Source: Lyngbya sp. CCAP 1446/10
GTDB lineage: Bacteria; Cyanobacteriota; Cyanobacteriia; Cyanobacteriales; Microcoleaceae
DNA: 64,000 nt
Assembly (NCBI RefSeq): GCF_026130175.1
Contig: NZ_JAIGNI010000002.1
Coordinates: forward strand, 124,001 to 188,000
Reading direction: 5' to 3'
Under the pieces are notes generated by a model. The model had not been told where the DNA came from. It ran no database searches and saw only the letters and a list, made by a program, of their open reading frames with translations. Below are positions 9,013 to 30,425 of the stretch, piece after piece. The first letter of the stretch is position 1; each line of letters opens with the position of its first letter. A program made the position numbers and the translations under genes.

Positions 9013-10215
9013 TCAAGCTAAAAACCGCACTTCTTCCCGTATTGTACGCAATTTTGAGTCATTTTGGCATAGTTTCCGGTATTTGTCCGGATTTAGTTCG
9101 ATCGCCCTTGATAAGTTTTCGATAGCTTTCTGGATGCTGGTTGCTACAGCTTCGGGGCTGTTTGTGCGATCGCCCACGGCTTTTTCTAGGGCCCAGACGC
9201 AGGCTTTTTGATAGTAAAGATTTGGATCGTCTGGTGTGATGGCTATGATGCGATCGTAGGAAGCGATTGCTTCGGTAAATCGTTGGATTTTTTTGAGGGC
9301 GACAGCGCGGTTGTATAAGGCTTCGATGTTGTCTGGCTGCAACTCTAAGGTTTTGTCCCAAGAGGCGATGGCTTCTTCAAACTGTTGTAAGTTGGCCAAG
9401 GCCAGGCCGCGGTTGTACCAGGTTTCGCTGTCGTCTGGCTTGAGTTCGATCGCTTTGTCCCAGGATACGATCGCTGCTTCAAATTTTCCCATTTGGGCGA
9501 TCGCCGTGCCGCGTTTGTTCCAGACTTCGGGGGAATTCGGGCGTAGTTGCAGGGTTTTGTCGTAGGAGGCGACGGCTTCGGGGTAGAGTTTTTCATCGGC
9601 TAGGACTAACCCGCGGTTGTACCAGGCTTGATACAAGTCTGGTTTTAGTTCGATCGCTTTGTCGTAGGATGCGATCGCCGCTGTATTTTGGCCGGAGTGT
9701 TTCAGGGCGAATGCTTTGTTGTACCAAGCTTCGGAGTAGTCTGCTTGGATGGCGATCGCTTTGTCGTAGGAGTCGATCGCTTCTGATAATTTTCCCAAGT
9801 TTACGAGGGTGTTGCCGCGGTTCGTCCAAGCTTCGTGATAGTTTGGCTTGAGTTCGATCGCCTGTTCGTAGGAGGCGATGGCGTCTGAGAGTCTGTTGAG
9901 CTTCCGCAAAACGTTGGCGCGATTATACCACGCTTCTGCATTTTTTGGTTTAATTTTTAAAGATTTGTTGTAAGCGGAGATCGCTTCGGGTAGCTGTCCC
10001 AATTTTCTGAGGGCTACGCCTTTGTTGTACCAAGCTTCGTGAAATTTCGGTTCAAGTTCGATCGCCTTTGACCAGGATGCGATCGCCGCTGATAGCCGTC
10101 CCATTTCTTCTAGGGCGTTACCGCGATCGTACAGCGTTTGAGCTTTTTGGGCGTTGACGGAGCTGATTTTTTCCACGGAATCGAGGGGCTTTTCTTTGCT
10201 AACTACATTTTGCAA
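9013..10215 (-). CDS. TPR-repeat protein (about 10 repeats)
   Basis: Residues ~25-345 are ten 34-residue tetratricopeptide repeats with the pattern AWYNRGxxLxxLxxxxEAIxSYDKAIELKPD. The C-terminal tail (NLSRAIELNPDKYRKLCQND...) is a capping element also seen in the TPR gene at 11962-13065. TPRs make superhelical scaffolds for protein-protein contacts. No signal peptide or membrane segment is visible, so it is probably cytoplasmic. It reads toward the carboxypeptidase gene and stops just before it, but a functional link is not shown. Confidence 0.9.
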   Translation of the reverse strand: MQNVVSKEKPLDSVEKISSVNAQKAQTLYDRGNALEEMGRLSAAIASWSKAIELEPKFHEAWYNKGVALRKLGQLPEAISAYNKSLKIKPKNAEAWYNRANVLRKLNRLSDAIASYEQAIELKPNYHEAWTNRGNTLVNLGKLSEAIDSYDKAIAIQADYSEAWYNKAFALKHSGQNTAAIASYDKAIELKPDLYQAWYNRGLVLADEKLYPEAVASYDKTLQLRPNSPEVWNKRGTAIAQMGKFEAAIVSWDKAIELKPDDSETWYNRGLALANLQQFEEAIASWDKTLELQPDNIEALYNRAVALKKIQRFTEAIASYDRIIAITPDDPNLYYQKACVWALEKAVGDRTNSPEAVATSIQKAIENLSRAIELNPDKYRKLCQNDSKLRTIREEVRFLA

Positions 10216-10550
10216 GGGTTTTCACCTCATTAATTTTATTTAAAATTGTCGCTTTTGCTTTTATATTAAGGTTTCGCTGGAGTTTGAAGGCGAGCGATCG
10301 CCGATAATTGATTATTTATGGCAATTCTACAAGAACTCTGCCATCTTTTCAACTTTGCCTGTTATACACGCAAGTATTGAGTTTCAACGTATAGATTAAT
10401 ACTTATTTTTTCCGCTAATTGCGTAGAAGAGCAGAAAGGGCGATCGGCATGAGGTATGACAAACCTCACCCCAAACAGCTAAATTTTCACCTTCACAACG
10501 AGGGGGAAGGGCCTAAATGGTTTACCGTCAGCTACGGTATAAATGTATTT
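10216..10550. other. Spacer without a recognised gene
   Basis: AT-rich spacer between the TPR gene start and the orphan antitoxin stop. A small palindrome TACCGTCAGCTACGGTA lies near 10524-10540, close to the antitoxin 3' end. Nothing else is recognised. Confidence 0.4.
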
Positions 10551-10901
10551 TTATGAGTCAAGAATCGAACCAAAATCAGGATCGATCGCTACTGTTTTAA
10601 TCCATTCTGAGTCGTGGAATGGCTTGCCATCAGCTAAAGTGTAGATATCTTCGGCTGAGTCTCTAAGGGAATCAAAGGCTGGATTTGCGATCGCAACTTT
10701 TAGCCATTCATATTCTTCTAATTTTGCTTGCTTAATGAGGGCAGCTTCTAGTGCTTCCAGTCGCTTCAGGTCAGTATAACTAATGATAGCAGCGATCGCC
10801 TTTCCTTCTTGTTCTATAACGATTCGTTCTCCTGTATCCTCAATACTGGCGATGAGTTCTGGAAATCTGTCATCAATTACAGTTACATTTAGTTGAGTCA
10901 T
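10551..10901 (-). CDS. Phd/YefM-type antitoxin, no adjacent toxin
   Basis: 116 aa. The N-terminal ~55 residues (MTQLNVTVIDDRFPELIASIEDTGERIVIEQEGKAIAAIIS split over two strands) match the Phd/YefM fold: a short beta-strand, a helix, then the VIEQxGKAIAAIISYTDLKRLE core. The C-terminal half is acidic and would be the toxin-binding part. No toxin-sized frame lies downstream, and upstream is only a TPR-gene remnant, so it is an orphan or its partner is distant. It may act as a repressor or as an anti-addiction module. Confidence 0.75.
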   Translation of the reverse strand: MTQLNVTVIDDRFPELIASIEDTGERIVIEQEGKAIAAIISYTDLKRLEALEAALIKQAKLEEYEWLKVAIANPAFDSLRDSAEDIYTLADGKPFHDSEWIKTVAIDPDFGSILDS

Positions 10902-25359: not shown

Positions 25360-25992
25360 ATGAATAATGCCCTGCCAGATCCCGGACACAATAACCCGCA
25401 ATCTCAACTCAATGATTTTCTGCAATCTTTAGACACCGAAAAGCCGCAGACGGTGCAACATTCAGACCTAAACTTAACACCAAATCATTTACCGGACTAT
25501 TCTAAGCAGCCTAATTTTATCCAGACTAACCAACCAGACATTGTACCAGATTTCTTTCAAGCTGCACAAGCAGACAGTAACCAAAACCATGACTCGCATC
25601 AAACATCAAGCCTAGATTCCCATCATCAACAAGTTTGGACAGTCAACTCTTCGTATATAACTGTTCCTGGGGGCGATCGTACCATGAACGGCCCCCACAT
25701 TGACATCCGGGATAACGGTCACATTTATCTGCATCAGCTAAACGGTCACACCGTTGATGTCGGTGATGTTCGAGGCCATGCCATGTATAATTCATCTGGG
25801 TGGGAAGTGGGTTACTTCAAAGACAATGGAGAAGTCTATAAATATAATTATCACTCAGGGGATAATTTTATATGTAAAATAGAGAACGGTCACATTTATA
25901 ATGTAGACCATCAAGAAATAGGACGCGCTGATACTAATTTGGAAGGTGCAGCCCACCTGTTATTTGTAGTAGGAGGAGGCGCCAAAACTTAA
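25360..25992 (+). CDS. Hypothetical protein, 210 aa
   Basis: The first ~90 residues are low-complexity and rich in Asn, Gln, Asp, His and Pro, without a signal peptide. The second half (from ~92) has short beta-like repeats: NGHIYLHQLNGHTVDVGDVR, NSSGWEVGYFKDNGEVYKYN, NGHIYNVDHQEIGRAD. These look like a four-to-five-strand small beta domain built from NGxIYxxxxxxxG units. I recognise no family. The ATG follows GTGACTCGCC without a strong ribosome site. A low-complexity head followed by a compact beta tail suggests a secreted or surface-binding protein, but this is guesswork. Confidence 0.6.
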   Translation: MNNALPDPGHNNPQSQLNDFLQSLDTEKPQTVQHSDLNLTPNHLPDYSKQPNFIQTNQPDIVPDFFQAAQADSNQNHDSHQTSSLDSHHQQVWTVNSSYITVPGGDRTMNGPHIDIRDNGHIYLHQLNGHTVDVGDVRGHAMYNSSGWEVGYFKDNGEVYKYNYHSGDNFICKIENGHIYNVDHQEIGRADTNLEGAAHLLFVVGGGAKT

Positions 25993-26238: not shown

Positions 26239-26424
26239 ATGAGCGTTAGTTTAAGTATTGCAGAAATCAAAGAAATTATTGGACAGCTACCAGTTTCAGT
26301 ATTACAAGACTTACTACAGCAAATCCAAGAACAAATAGAAACTGAGAAATTCATGCAGCTAGCCGAAAGTGGTTTCTCTGAGTGGTACGATCCAGAGGAG
26401 GATATTTATGAGTCAAAAACCTAA
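26239..26424 (+). CDS. Small PemI/MazE-type antitoxin candidate
   Basis: 61 aa, mostly helical: MSVSLSIAEIKEIIGQLPVS, then LQDLLQQIQEQIETEKF and an acidic tail SEWYDPEEDIYESKT. It sits directly before a PemK-like toxin whose ATG overlaps its last codons (26408-26424). Small acidic-tailed proteins in this position are usual antitoxin partners of PemK/MazF toxins in cyanobacteria. No DNA-binding domain of the AbrB type is evident, so assignment rests largely on position and size. Confidence 0.7.
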   Translation: MSVSLSIAEIKEIIGQLPVSVLQDLLQQIQEQIETEKFMQLAESGFSEWYDPEEDIYESKT

Positions 26425-26767
26425 TCCCGGAGAAGTCTGGTTAGTTTCTTTTCCTTTCAGTGATTTAAGTATCAGTAAACTTAGGCCAGCTTTAGTTGTA
26501 GCTAGACACCGCCAAGAATTAATTATTTTAGGAATTTTCTCGAAAATCCCCCCTGGTAATTTACTTCCAACTTGGGTATTGATTGCAGATACAGATTCAA
26601 ATTTTCCGCAGACTGGTTTGTTGAAAACATCTCTAGTTAGGGCAGATAAAATTACTACTGTTAATGAGTCAGTTTTTGACAAAAAGTTGGGCGAGTTACC
26701 ATCGGATTTGAGCAGATTAGTCAGTTTAGCCTTGAAAGTTTCTCTTAATATTGTTAACGAACTTTAA
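26408..26767 (+). CDS. PemK/MazF-family toxin (endoribonuclease)
   Basis: The start is the ATG giving MSQKPNPGEVWLVSFPFSDL, preceded by GAGGAGG at 26396-26402; a longer frame from 26369 lacks such a site. Family motifs are GEVWLVSFPFSD, LRPALVVARHR, GLLKTSLVRADKITTVNESV and KLGELPSDLSRLVSLALKVS. These toxins cut mRNA at specific short sequences and are neutralised by the partner antitoxin. The pair overlaps by 17 bases, and the next gene begins 24 bases after its stop, so three genes may be co-transcribed. Confidence 0.9.
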   Translation: MSQKPNPGEVWLVSFPFSDLSISKLRPALVVARHRQELIILGIFSKIPPGNLLPTWVLIADTDSNFPQTGLLKTSLVRADKITTVNESVFDKKLGELPSDLSRLVSLALKVSLNIVNEL

Positions 26768-26791: not shown

Positions 26792-29700
26792 ATGACGAAA
26801 GCATTACCAGGCAAAAAAAGTGTTTTGGTTCAGATTAGAGATGATGCTAATGCGAAACTTTTTCCGACAAAAGATCAAGCAGATATCCAAGCTGAAACCG
26901 CTCTCTCTATTGCTAACATCAATGCAGATACTGCGATTTCTATTGCCAAGATTAATTCAGAAAACGCTAATAAACAAATAAAACTACAAGAAAATATTTC
27001 TATTCTCCAAGCCTTGCAACATCAAGCCACCCTTGATGTCACAAGGGAACAAGGTGAATCAAACCGAGATTTACAGCAATACCTCGCAGAAATGAATATT
27101 GCTTTTCAAGCTAATGAAGGCACACTTAACCGCGAGTTACAAGATAAATTAGCGCAATTAAATTGGGATTTTCAAGCCAATGAAGGCCAACTCAACCGCG
27201 AACACAGCGCCCAACTAGAAGTATTGCGCGCCGAATTGCAAAAATTCTGCATCGCCGAACAGCGTCAACTCCAACTAGACTTAAAACAGTTAGATTCACT
27301 CCTAGCACGAGAAATTGCTCAGGCAAATCGCGAAACAGCAATTGCCGCCATTGTCAAGCAACAAAACCTACAAAATTCCCCAATTCTCGTCACCGCTGAA
27401 AACATTATTGCCAACATCAACCCTGAAGATACACCCATTTTACGAGTTTTCTTATCACCACCAGTCTTGACTCACGATGCTGCTAAACCAAATCAAAACT
27501 TTCCGGTATCTGAGGAATTTTTAAGCAATTATCTGCGAAACTTCCTAGACAAGTATATCACCGAGGGCCGGCCAGTGCAATTTATGGGCGGTTATTGGCG
27601 GAGTAATGTTTTTCGGGAAGAAGCGGCGGCGGAAAACTTATTTGCAGGTTTGCGGGTAATTCCCACACTCATTTTAGACTCATCCGCCACGCCCGATGAC
27701 TTTTATTTGCGCTTTGGCTTTTGGCATATTAATTTCAAAAAATATCGTTACCAAACCCCAATTCATCAATTACCTTGGGTTGAGGTATTGTATGATTTTG
27801 CTAAAGAACGGGCTGTGAATTGGCAAGGGAAACGACAAGCGTATATTGACTCTGGTAAGCCTGTGGCTGATTTCGATAGCCGTTATGGTGAGGAAACAGT
27901 TCAAGGCTATCAGCAAAATTTACGAATTTCGGAAATTGAACGCGGTGCGCTAGAGGAAGGAGAAGATTTAAGCGAAATTCATCGCCCTTATCATTTGCAC
28001 AAAAATGATTACAATGATTTGGCAGAATTTATCGGAATACTCCATGCTGTATTCGCGGGGTTAATTGTTGATGAATATTGTCTGATGTTTCTGCCTCCCG
28101 ATGAGCGAAAAACACCTTTATTACCGCAGTTTCTCCCAGAAATGTTGGAAAAAATGCCCGCTGAGGAACAGCAGATTATTATAGAAATTGCCGTGGGTTA
28201 TTATCAGGGATTGTATGATAATTTGGCTGAAGAAGAGTCGGCATTAATTCCTGATTTGCGTTTAGATTTAGCTGTATCTCTGTTGAGTTTGGCTGACAAA
28301 CAGTGGGCAGCAGCACAGTTATATTTGTCTGTCCAAGATTGGTTAAAATTGCATGGTTTGCCTATTCCAGAACAAAGTCAGTTATTAAGTGTTTTGGCGG
28401 CAGCTTTAACCATTGATGATTTTCCCTATGTAACCCAGCTAAATCAATGCTTGCAAGGTTTGGGAGCGGATTTACAACTAAGCGTCATTGAGTCTTATTG
28501 GCAACGGGGTTTACAACGGGCAAAAAATGGGGAATATTCCTTGGCAATTGCTGATTTTAATCAAGTTTTACAGTTAGACGATTCTCGCTTTGAGGCGAAT
28601 TTTCAGCGCGGTTTGGCTTACGATCAAATTGGTGAGTATCAGCGAGCGATCGCAGATTTTGACCAGGTATTGCGACTTAATCCCAATGACGCTGATGTTT
28701 ACCACCATCGCGGCTTAGTTTATCAGAAGTTAGGACAGTTAGAACAGGCAGTTAAAGATTTTAATCTGGCCTTGCAACTCAATCCGAGTTTACCGGATGT
28801 ACTGCACATTCGCGATGTGGCTTTGGGTGTATTAGAGAATAGAAAACAGGAAGCAGAAGTAAAAATTCAACGCCGGGAAGCAGAAGAAAGGGAACGTCAA
28901 CAGCGGGAAGCCGAAGCCGAACGTTTGCGCCGGGAGGAAAAAGCGAGTAAAGGTAAAGAATTTACTTTTGAAATCATCACGGTGGATAAGCAGGGGAAAC
29001 CAAGTAGTAAGAAGTCGGGGAAGGCTTATCAAAAAGAGGAAGATTTAGGCAATGGGGTGAAACTGGAAATGGTGCAGATCCCAGCGGGTAGCTTTATGAT
29101 GGGTTCACCGTTGGAAGAAGGTAATGATAATGAACGCCCGCAACATCAGGTCACTTTGGCCCAACCATTTTATATCGGGAAATATGCCATTACCCAAGAA
29201 CAATGGCAAGCGGTGATGGGAAATAACCCTTCTGATTTTAAGGGTGCGAAGCGGCCTGTAGAAAAGGTATCGTGGAATGATGCGGTAAGTTTTTGTCAGA
29301 AGCTATCGGAGAAAACCGGGAAAAACTATCGTTTGCCGAGTGAGGCGGAATGGGAATATGCTTGTCGGGCAGGTACGACTACAGCTTTTCACTTTGGCCC
29401 AACAATTACCCCAGATTTAGTTAATTATGATGGCAATAATCCCTACGGTTCTGCACCCAAAGGACTTTATCGCCAAGAAACAACGCCAGTGGGGAGTTTT
29501 CCGCCGAATGCCTTTGGCTTATACGATATGCACGGGAATGTTTGGGAATGGTGTGCTGATCCTTGGCATGGCAATTATAACGGTGCACCATCTGACGGTA
29601 GTTCGTGGACAACTGGAGGAAGTTATAACCGAGTGCAGCGTGGAGGTTCGTGGGCCTACAATGCGGTCTTTTGCCGTGCTGCCAACCGCAACTACTACTC

Positions 29701-29980
29701 TGCGGGCTACTCGGACGGGCTCAGCGGTTTTCGTGTAGTGGAGGCTTTGGCTCTCCAGCCGGAAGCCGAAGCCGAACGTTTGCGCCGGGAAGCAGAAGAA
29801 AGGGAACGTCAACAGCGGGAAGCGGAAGCCGAACGTTTGCGCCGGGAAGCAGTAGCAATAGTACCTCAACGTAAAGCAGCCGTAGCGGAACCTTTGGACT
29901 GGAAGGAAGAAGATAGCGCAGGGCTGTCTTGCCTGTGTGTAATCTTCTTTGCTTTTTTGCTCTATTTCATTTTCCGGTAG
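26792..29980 (+). CDS. TPR + FGE/C-type-lectin-fold protein, probable DGR variable protein
   Basis: 1062 aa, ribosome site GGAGG at 26780-26784. Residues ~25-210 form a long Gln/Asn/Glu-rich coiled coil with repeated FQANEGxLNRE units. Residues ~210-560 are an unrecognised globular region. Three TPRs occupy ~567-670 and a charged coiled coil (AEAERLRREE, ~683-720) follows. A formylglycine-generating-enzyme-like (FGE-sulfatase, C-type lectin fold) domain spans ~753-985: MVQIPAGSFMMGSPLEEG, YRLPSEAEWEYACRAGTT, YDMHGNVWEWCADPW and the end RGGSWAYNAVFCRAANRN...GFRVV. The catalytic Cys pair of true FGEs is not seen. After it come a repeat of the AEAERLRRE coiled coil and one membrane helix (~1043-1060). 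The GGSW...GFRVV segment is the place where diversity-generating retroelements diversify such proteins, and its codons fit that pattern. It is likely a membrane-anchored ligand-binding protein. Confidence 0.9.
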   Translation: MTKALPGKKSVLVQIRDDANAKLFPTKDQADIQAETALSIANINADTAISIAKINSENANKQIKLQENISILQALQHQATLDVTREQGESNRDLQQYLAEMNIAFQANEGTLNRELQDKLAQLNWDFQANEGQLNREHSAQLEVLRAELQKFCIAEQRQLQLDLKQLDSLLAREIAQANRETAIAAIVKQQNLQNSPILVTAENIIANINPEDTPILRVFLSPPVLTHDAAKPNQNFPVSEEFLSNYLRNFLDKYITEGRPVQFMGGYWRSNVFREEAAAENLFAGLRVIPTLILDSSATPDDFYLRFGFWHINFKKYRYQTPIHQLPWVEVLYDFAKERAVNWQGKRQAYIDSGKPVADFDSRYGEETVQGYQQNLRISEIERGALEEGEDLSEIHRPYHLHKNDYNDLAEFIGILHAVFAGLIVDEYCLMFLPPDERKTPLLPQFLPEMLEKMPAEEQQIIIEIAVGYYQGLYDNLAEEESALIPDLRLDLAVSLLSLADKQWAAAQLYLSVQDWLKLHGLPIPEQSQLLSVLAAALTIDDFPYVTQLNQCLQGLGADLQLSVIESYWQRGLQRAKNGEYSLAIADFNQVLQLDDSRFEANFQRGLAYDQIGEYQRAIADFDQVLRLNPNDADVYHHRGLVYQKLGQLEQAVKDFNLALQLNPSLPDVLHIRDVALGVLENRKQEAEVKIQRREAEERERQQREAEAERLRREEKASKGKEFTFEIITVDKQGKPSSKKSGKAYQKEEDLGNGVKLEMVQIPAGSFMMGSPLEEGNDNERPQHQVTLAQPFYIGKYAITQEQWQAVMGNNPSDFKGAKRPVEKVSWNDAVSFCQKLSEKTGKNYRLPSEAEWEYACRAGTTTAFHFGPTITPDLVNYDGNNPYGSAPKGLYRQETTPVGSFPPNAFGLYDMHGNVWEWCADPWHGNYNGAPSDGSSWTTGGSYNRVQRGGSWAYNAVFCRAANRNYYSAGYSDGLSGFRVVEALALQPEAEAERLRREAEERERQQREAEAERLRREAVAIVPQRKAAVAEPLDWKEEDSAGLSCLCVIFFAFLLYFIFR
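29641..29745 (+). other. Candidate DGR variable region (VR)
   Basis: This segment encodes GGSWAYNAVFCRAANRN followed by YYSAGYSDGLSGFRVV. Positions that in related DGR targets derive from AAC/AAT template codons are here GCC TAC AAT, GTC TTT, AAC TAC TAC TCT, GGC TAC TCG GAC and CTC AGC. Nearly all end in C or T, as expected from adenine-specific substitution of AAY codons. Invariant-type codons (TCG TGG, TGC CGT, AAC CGC, GGT TTT CGT) separate them. No template repeat or reverse transcriptase is in the window, so this is a proposed remote VR. Confidence 0.55.
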
Positions 29981-30425
29981 TGCGTTAGCGCTTTAAAAAA
30001 AATTCAGAAATGATAGCAAATCCGATTAAATAGACATAATTTCGGTAGGGGCGGGTTCACCGAAATTATGTCTATCCATCGACAAACAATAAAAACCCGC
30101 CCCCACCCTACCGAGATGTTAAATAATTGATGGAATATAAGAGTTGTCTGAAGTTATTGGTTGGGTGGGGGCGGGTTTATAGATATTTGGGATGTCAATT
30201 AGAGATTGTTGGTGAACCCGCCCCTACAGGTTTTATTGAAGATTTTACCAATAATTTGACCATCTATGTATGGGGCGAATTAACCGAAATATTTGCCACC
30301 CATCGACAAACGATCAAAACCCGCCCCCACCTCACTATAAACTGCCGGCTTGTATAGATTTTTGCTAAACACGCCCCTATAATATGTTATGTTTTTTTAT
30401 GGCAGTTATACTTAACTAAGAATCT
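29981..30425. repeat. Intergenic inverted-repeat array with GGGGCGGGTT units
   Basis: A perfect 15-bp stem (TAGACATAATTTCGG at 30031-30045, its complement at 30060-30074) carries GTAGGGGCGGGTTCA in its loop. Further copies or inverses of GGGGCGGGTT/AACCCGCCCC lie at about 30092, 30165, 30214 and 30318, two of them preceded by CATCGACAAAC. The 445-bp gap before fmt holds no supported gene; the frame 30127-30357 reads through the repeats. Confidence 0.6.

Follow-up and report, generated by a model that had tools for sequence, protein, structure and literature searches.

A probable orphan, apparently frozen target of a diversity-generating retroelement in a Lyngbya genome, recognised through a template kept by a sister species

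Diversity-generating retroelements (DGRs) have mostly been studied while active. Orphan and remnant DGR targets are already known, at least from the portions of two reports on which we draw here (PMC7517822, PMC10907252). In the first of these, as far as those portions go, all3226 of Nostoc PCC 7120 retains remnant homology between a template repeat (TR) and a variable region (VR) with no reverse transcriptase (RT) nearby. In the second, again in the sections used here, degenerate DGR loci of Thiohalocapsa PB-PSB1 contain targets that lack machinery of their own or have it only as pseudogenes, and complete cassettes elsewhere in that genome may act on them in trans (PMC10907252). Here we describe a gene in a 64,000-nucleotide stretch of Lyngbya sp. 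CCAP 1446/10 (assembly GCF_026130175.1, contig NZ_JAIGNI010000002.1, positions 124,001 to 188,000; hereafter the window) that, on comparison with its relatives, is with high probability an orphan and apparently frozen target of a DGR that its genome no longer seems to have. The stretch lies on contig C94 of a draft assembly totalling 6.75 Mb in 171 contigs, with completeness estimated at 100%.

The window gene resembles all3226 and the cyanobacterial DGR variable proteins described in the same partial source in having a C-type-lectin/formylglycine-generating enzyme (FGE) domain with an adenine-restricted VR, and resembles the latter also in its N-terminal signalling or interaction domains (PMC7517822). 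It differs in that the genome of all3226 has DGRs, whereas searches of the window assembly turned up no DGR RT, and in that the remote VR/TR matches described there lie near gene 3' ends, whereas the window VR instead precedes linker copies and a hydrophobic tail. The Thiohalocapsa loci share the missing machinery, but no complete cassette was found elsewhere in our genome. What appears to be new, as far as our searches show, is an orphan VR demonstrated through a sister template, with no machinery found anywhere in the assembly, and a homing-site region that has become a protein tail; we found no published report of the locus, which is itself weak evidence.

The gene (26792–29980, + strand) is an open reading frame (ORF) of 1062 amino acids, with its VR at 29629–29736 (+). 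Against the template repeat of a sister species, G001, these 108 bases mismatch at 11 of 26 template adenines but, among the remaining 82 positions, at a single one (Fisher p=2.3e-7); wherever the VR itself has an adenine (15 positions), it agrees with that template. The template of a second sister, G015, gives 12/27 adenine and 3/81 non-adenine mismatches (p=1.8e-6). In the same window/G001 gene pair, about 2.66 kb of aligned upstream sequence differs at 71/770 adenines and 271/1890 other positions and shows no adenine bias. Within a 98-bp VR core, the single mismatch among 74 non-adenine positions is fewer than the upstream rate predicts (binomial P 1.4e-4), which agrees with the expectation for a copied segment. 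Among 17 TR-like sequences, 15 of them equal in length to the window segment, that of G001 fits the window VR best; this comparison took equal-length segments only, and the VRs listed are those with at most 8 non-adenine mismatches from loci before L127. For calibration, VR/TR pairs within single genomes show no non-adenine mismatch in L080, L082, L091 (twice) and L092, one in L077 and G015, and two in L093 and G001. Two hallmarks of a DGR-made variable region, present or past, are seen: mismatches confined to template adenines in all cases but one, and a scaffold of C-type-lectin type. On these sequence comparisons we regard 29629–29736 as confirmed to be a DGR-made VR, by way of the sister species rather than its own genome, and a template that hardly differed from that of G001 was very probably its source.

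These results refine a sequence-only reading of the same DNA. That reading had proposed a DGR variable region with replaced template adenines, which the G001 comparison bears out, and the peptide it quoted, GGSWAYNAVFCRAANRN...GFRVV, is present at about 29642–29740 together with the quoted codons. It had drawn the region at 29400–29760; the part at 29629–29736 stands, with variable codons at 29654–29725 (+) by comparison with the sister templates, while 29400–29628 is ordinary conserved FGE sequence. Four of the codons that it took to be variable (GTC 29666, TCT 29699, GGC 29705 and TCG 29711) belong to the constant part of both sister templates, and the AAC codons at 29684 and 29690, which it called invariant, come from the template and have escaped mutation. 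Its remark that the region, unusually, is not the end of the protein also holds: a coiled-coil-like segment and a hydrophobic stretch come after the VR.

The same reading took the gene to be a remote target, and held that the lack of both a template repeat and a DGR RT in the genome would refute this. Neither was found. A PF00078 profile search of the genome gave five RT matches representing four genes, none of DGR type: the maturase of a group II intron (L004), a broken gene for a group II-like RT (L006/L008), an RT followed by Cas1 (L005; PF01867, E 6.9e-87) that NCBIfam also scored as group II-like, and a 578-residue, defence-like UG34/DRT-like RT on contig C129 (L007). The last was considered as a mutator and rejected as DRT-like (PADLOC RT_UG34, E 1.9e-202). 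The G015 RT as query matched only the Cas1-adjacent RT, at 31%, and the best bAvd match in the genome, at E 0.74, was not credible. A template-plus-flank query matched only two VR-bearing genes in the genome and left the TR flanks unmatched, and a 116-base VR query returned the VR itself, an FGE paralogue on C53 (73% identical) and six short matches at E 0.2–8. The missing RT and template speak only against present activity, since sister species keep the template or cassette at the orthologous gene. The genome has four other PF03781 matches, two of which, on C53 and C56, could be compared with the TR-like sequences; both were ruled out as products of the compared templates (best 13/25 adenine and 14/73 non-adenine mismatches for C53, 16/28 and 21/70 for C56).

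The search for relatives covered 79 genomes including our own, each with some match to the protein, and 29 of the genus, again including our own. Altogether 54 of 80 loci were examined, of which 49 were in frame and stop-free and 47 entered set A1 (L152 and L193 omitted, L127 trimmed); six loci had an N-terminal match, four of which entered set A2. Twenty stretches were read closely, 19 from relatives and one the C53 paralogue. Downstream of the orthologue in G015, a member of the genus, lie in turn a template-like repeat with AAY at almost every variable codon, a 116-residue bAvd (PF22296, E 2.8e-17) and a 348-residue RT, which by sequence make up a complete cassette at the orthologous locus (target, TR, bAvd and DGR RT). 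In G001, also of the genus, a template repeat lies downstream of the orthologue, and neither a DGR RT nor bAvd was found in that genome. Across the genus, the G015 RT query has a close match in 5 of the 29 genomes (G015, G025, G026, G028 and, partially, G009); G027, like our genome, shows only a 31% match. bAvd was found in four genomes, our own not among them. The template-plus-flank query matches 22 of the 29 at E<=1e-5, with matches clearly entering the template's own flanks only in G015, G001, G025 and G028; a looser search touched the spacer in G009. At L061 of G028 (contig C93, about 9500–10650), the VR of the target, by eye, passes straight into a spacer of template type, after which come bAvd and RT; VR and TR there look collapsed to one repeat, a possible route of cassette death.

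Several side observations concern the templates themselves. The motif GAGTCC lies about 68–108 bases past the template GFR codons in 20 of 20 TR-like sequences and is followed by AG in 19 of the 20; the sequences come from cyanobacterial loci that include L052:11118, L053, L130:11446, L140:7007 and L091:2622. By eye, GAGTCC can pair with the 3' end of the template, and in some sequences (L140, L130) changes on one side seem to be compensated on the other. It can also pair with the VR's GGACT, a place at which the template is mismatched. Judged from sequence, this pairing may represent a cDNA-priming helix. GGACT occurs within 90 bases in 40 of 112 VR-like segments, compared with 2.6% in shuffles.

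The C-terminus of the window protein sets it apart from its orthologues. The G001 and G010 proteins stop 14 residues past GFR. Their DNA has GGACT where the VR ends on its 3' side; the corresponding letters in the templates of G001 and G015 are GCACT. In the window, the VR and its old 3' homing site are parted by a 167-bp in-frame insert (29757–29923, +) that consists for the most part of diverged copies of the linker of the same gene. Of the insert, 65 bp (29783–29847) are 98.5% identical to 28871–28935 in the charged linker (28871–28943, +), which has the look of a source copy, while other pieces are 90% and 73% identical; 29875–29912 also resembles the corresponding G014 linker (87% over 38 bp). 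Beyond it lie remains of the VR 3' end or homing site, displaced and altered, with their pyrimidine-rich flank (29924–29992, +): 29924–29973 matches the VR 3' end of G001 at 80% over 50 bp, with a remnant of the downstream flank too, and in an independent genome-level search 29924–29966 matches G018 at 86% (E 4e-7). The relatives' GGACT is not preserved at the homologous place and none lies within 90 bases of the window VR; a lone GGACT at 29896 is inside the insert, in another context. At the position of the TGA stop of G001 and G010 the window has TGT, so that translation continues into the pyrimidine-rich former 3' flank and yields the hydrophobic tail AGLSCLCVIFFAFLLYFIFR (29918–29977, +), a segment at the C-terminal end with the highest hydrophobicity in the protein (Kyte-Doolittle 2.55 over 19 residues). 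The whole of 29740–30000 is matched only by our own genome among the 29, with partial matches to the linker in G001, G015, G010 and G014 and to the homing-site piece in G018. Insert and stop loss together explain the unusual C-terminus in part, and the tail may anchor the protein in the membrane.

If these observations are put together, an ancestral cassette (TR, bAvd and DGR RT) would have copied a template close to that of G001 into the FGE/C-type-lectin domain, randomising template adenines, and would afterwards have been lost from the window lineage. The insert, mostly the gene's own linker, would have pushed the 3' homing site away from the VR, the site itself being altered as well, and loss of the stop would have lengthened the protein into its hydrophobic tail, leaving a sensor-like protein that had lost its machinery and kept a single variant. 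We infer the order of these events, as we do that the protein is made, binds something and is anchored in a membrane. An open gene in the window, compared with damaged close orthologues, fits the keeping of a useful variant, although chance and assembly errors are also conceivable.

A number of points weigh against the gene being a frozen orphan. Its frozen state is deduced from missing parts and not from watching reads or strains of the same species, and, the assembly being a draft in 171 contigs, a cassette could conceivably sit on DNA missing from it, despite the completeness estimated. One difference between VR and template, AGG to AGC at position 97, is at a non-adenine base. The ratio of nonsynonymous to synonymous divergence (dN/dS) of the VR counts in favour of the orphan at 2.34 against G001 and 5.71 against G010, compared with 0.11–0.41 in the rest of the gene for both, but it is 0.42, not high, against G047, and the VR estimates come from 29 codons and do not include the G015 VR (one two-codon segment with no usable rate was ignored). 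The homing-site remnant matches G001 strongly (E 2e-10) and G010 more weakly (3e-5), in pyrimidine-rich DNA, and BLAST found no match of it to G015; G015 moreover has CGA at the TGA position and stops seven codons later, so that this position is not a stop there. Finally, in the parts of the reports used here, homing of BPP-1 depends on the initiation of mutagenic homing (IMH) sequence and a hairpin directly downstream of the VR (PMC3240598), and later work on BPP-1 in Escherichia coli found residual activity with the hairpin removed (PMC12875486), so displacement of the site may not by itself put an end to homing where an RT is present.

The active alternative, in which the VR is still being rewritten by a cassette located elsewhere in the genome and not captured in the draft assembly, has in its favour that distant cassettes serve remote targets in cyanobacteria, according to the portions of PMC7517822 drawn on above, and that the non-adenine positions of the VR are almost identical to the sister template. 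We consider it very unlikely, given that DGR RT, bAvd and TR were not found in an assembly of that estimated completeness and that a linker copy, rather than a homing site, stands directly 3' of the VR; the proposal of a currently served target is not supported by these results. Less credible still, to the point of being nearly dismissible, is an ordinary FGE-like domain whose C-terminal loop has varied by normal divergence and whose likeness to the template reflects shared domain ancestry. The domain is widespread, and the paralogues on C53 and C56 are diverse in this loop with no close template match, but ordinary drift would not be expected to yield a VR in which non-adenine differences from a template copy are near zero, the adenine bias runs in one direction and synonymous divergence is low, nor are the non-adenine differences from the G001 and G015 templates found at the upstream rate.

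Two further explanations are compatible with a frozen target. The VR domain might have been imported ready-made by recombination or transfer from a DGR-bearing relative, the cassette perhaps never having been present at this locus in the lineage. The gene is about 94% identical to G010 up to about 28886 and only about 84% beyond, and synonymous divergence is 0.13–0.14 in the N-terminal parts and 0.42–0.54 in the FGE parts, so that by sequence the protein is a mosaic whose N-terminal part, unlike its FGE part, is closest to G010. These breaks favour import, but in G001 and G015 domain and TR or cassette adjoin, soon after the orthologous gene, and we think import rather unlikely. Somewhat more plausible, if still doubtful, is that the insert and hydrophobic tail represent degeneration of a decaying gene rather than a gained anchor. 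In the drafts, if they are right, the G001 and G010 orthologues are frame-broken and that of G015 is interrupted by a stop immediately ahead of its variable codons, and the restriction of the whole tail region to one genome would fit decay; against this, the insert is in frame, the ORF is open over its full length, as is the G047 orthologue, and dN/dS outside the VR is 0.11–0.41 against G015 as well as G001 and G010.

The protein is ordered as a long N-terminal helix, an uncharacterised region, TPR repeats (28592–28795, +; about residues 601–668), the linker, the FGE-sulfatase/C-type-lectin-fold domain (29066–29740, +, from profile, sequence and structure matches), the second linker copies and the tail. 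The predicted helix (26876–27358, +; residues 29–189), probably a coiled coil, comes from a moderate-confidence model of the N-terminal part with mean pLDDT (predicted local distance difference test) 73.3, which gave no PDB match at E<=0.001, and the N-terminal 585 residues gave no Pfam match at E<=1. PF03781 (FGE-sulfatase) spans residues 759–983 (E 1.8e-60), and an AlphaFold model of residues 735–1062 (pLDDT 87.6) has an FGE/C-type-lectin fold, for which Foldseek ranked PvdO first and Treponema denticola variable protein 1 (PDB 2y3c) third, followed by FGEs. The fold is thus shared with PvdO and FGE, PvdO 5hha being the best sequence match (E 2e-46), and with 2y3c, which is 31% identical and second by phmmer in a comparison covering the FGE-like domain only. 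In an alignment with human FGE, Tyr takes the place of the cysteine that the C336S entry has mutated, and the codon is one of the DGR-variable ones. Of the pair of copper-binding cysteines of FGE, one aligned position is Cys and the other Tyr, so the pair is incomplete; Tyr in place of the cysteine makes FGE catalysis unlikely. A binding rather than a catalytic role is therefore the likely one on sequence grounds, and the protein may now display one fixed ligand-binding surface, perhaps as a membrane-anchored sensor.

Around the gene, a 445-bp gap (29981–30425) precedes a formyltransferase gene (PF00551, fmt-like, ORF from 30426). A PemK/MazF-like ORF (PF02452, E 2e-11; 26369–26767, +) lies just upstream, and before it a small gene (25360–25992, +) has counterparts in G015 and G001, all three resembling a 5-fold beta-flower domain only weakly, short of the Pfam cut-off.

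Elsewhere in the genus, one 96-bp VR differs by 0–2 bases among G005, G014 and G027, none of which has a close DGR RT match, against 18–25 differing bases in 480 bp of upstream sequence, and to judge from these counts this common VR looks fixed. Paralogous targets in G025, G026, G006 and G018 (L058, L059, L057 and L060) also have a similar VR, LNVAVLCHSALRSRVSAGLRSSFFDFRV or one residue off, two of these genomes having a DGR RT match and two not. Their VR differs by 2–4 bases compared with 3–12 in the 480 bp upstream; since that is more per base than upstream, and a DGR origin is not demonstrated there, this set does not support freezing. We would put forward only tentatively, as somewhat short of an even chance, the genus-wide picture of DGR variants becoming fixed, in which cassettes are lost repeatedly while VRs persist, one of these being almost the same in three species, the homing-site region being recycled in the window as a membrane tail and a rewritable sensor made permanent.

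The complete cassette of G015, the template of G001 with no RT found, and the VR standing alone in the window are snapshots of possible fixation after loss of the mutator. Where a genome holds no template, an orphan VR in it can be demonstrated with that of a relative, and this series of loci makes it testable whether variants made by DGRs turn into permanent receptors.

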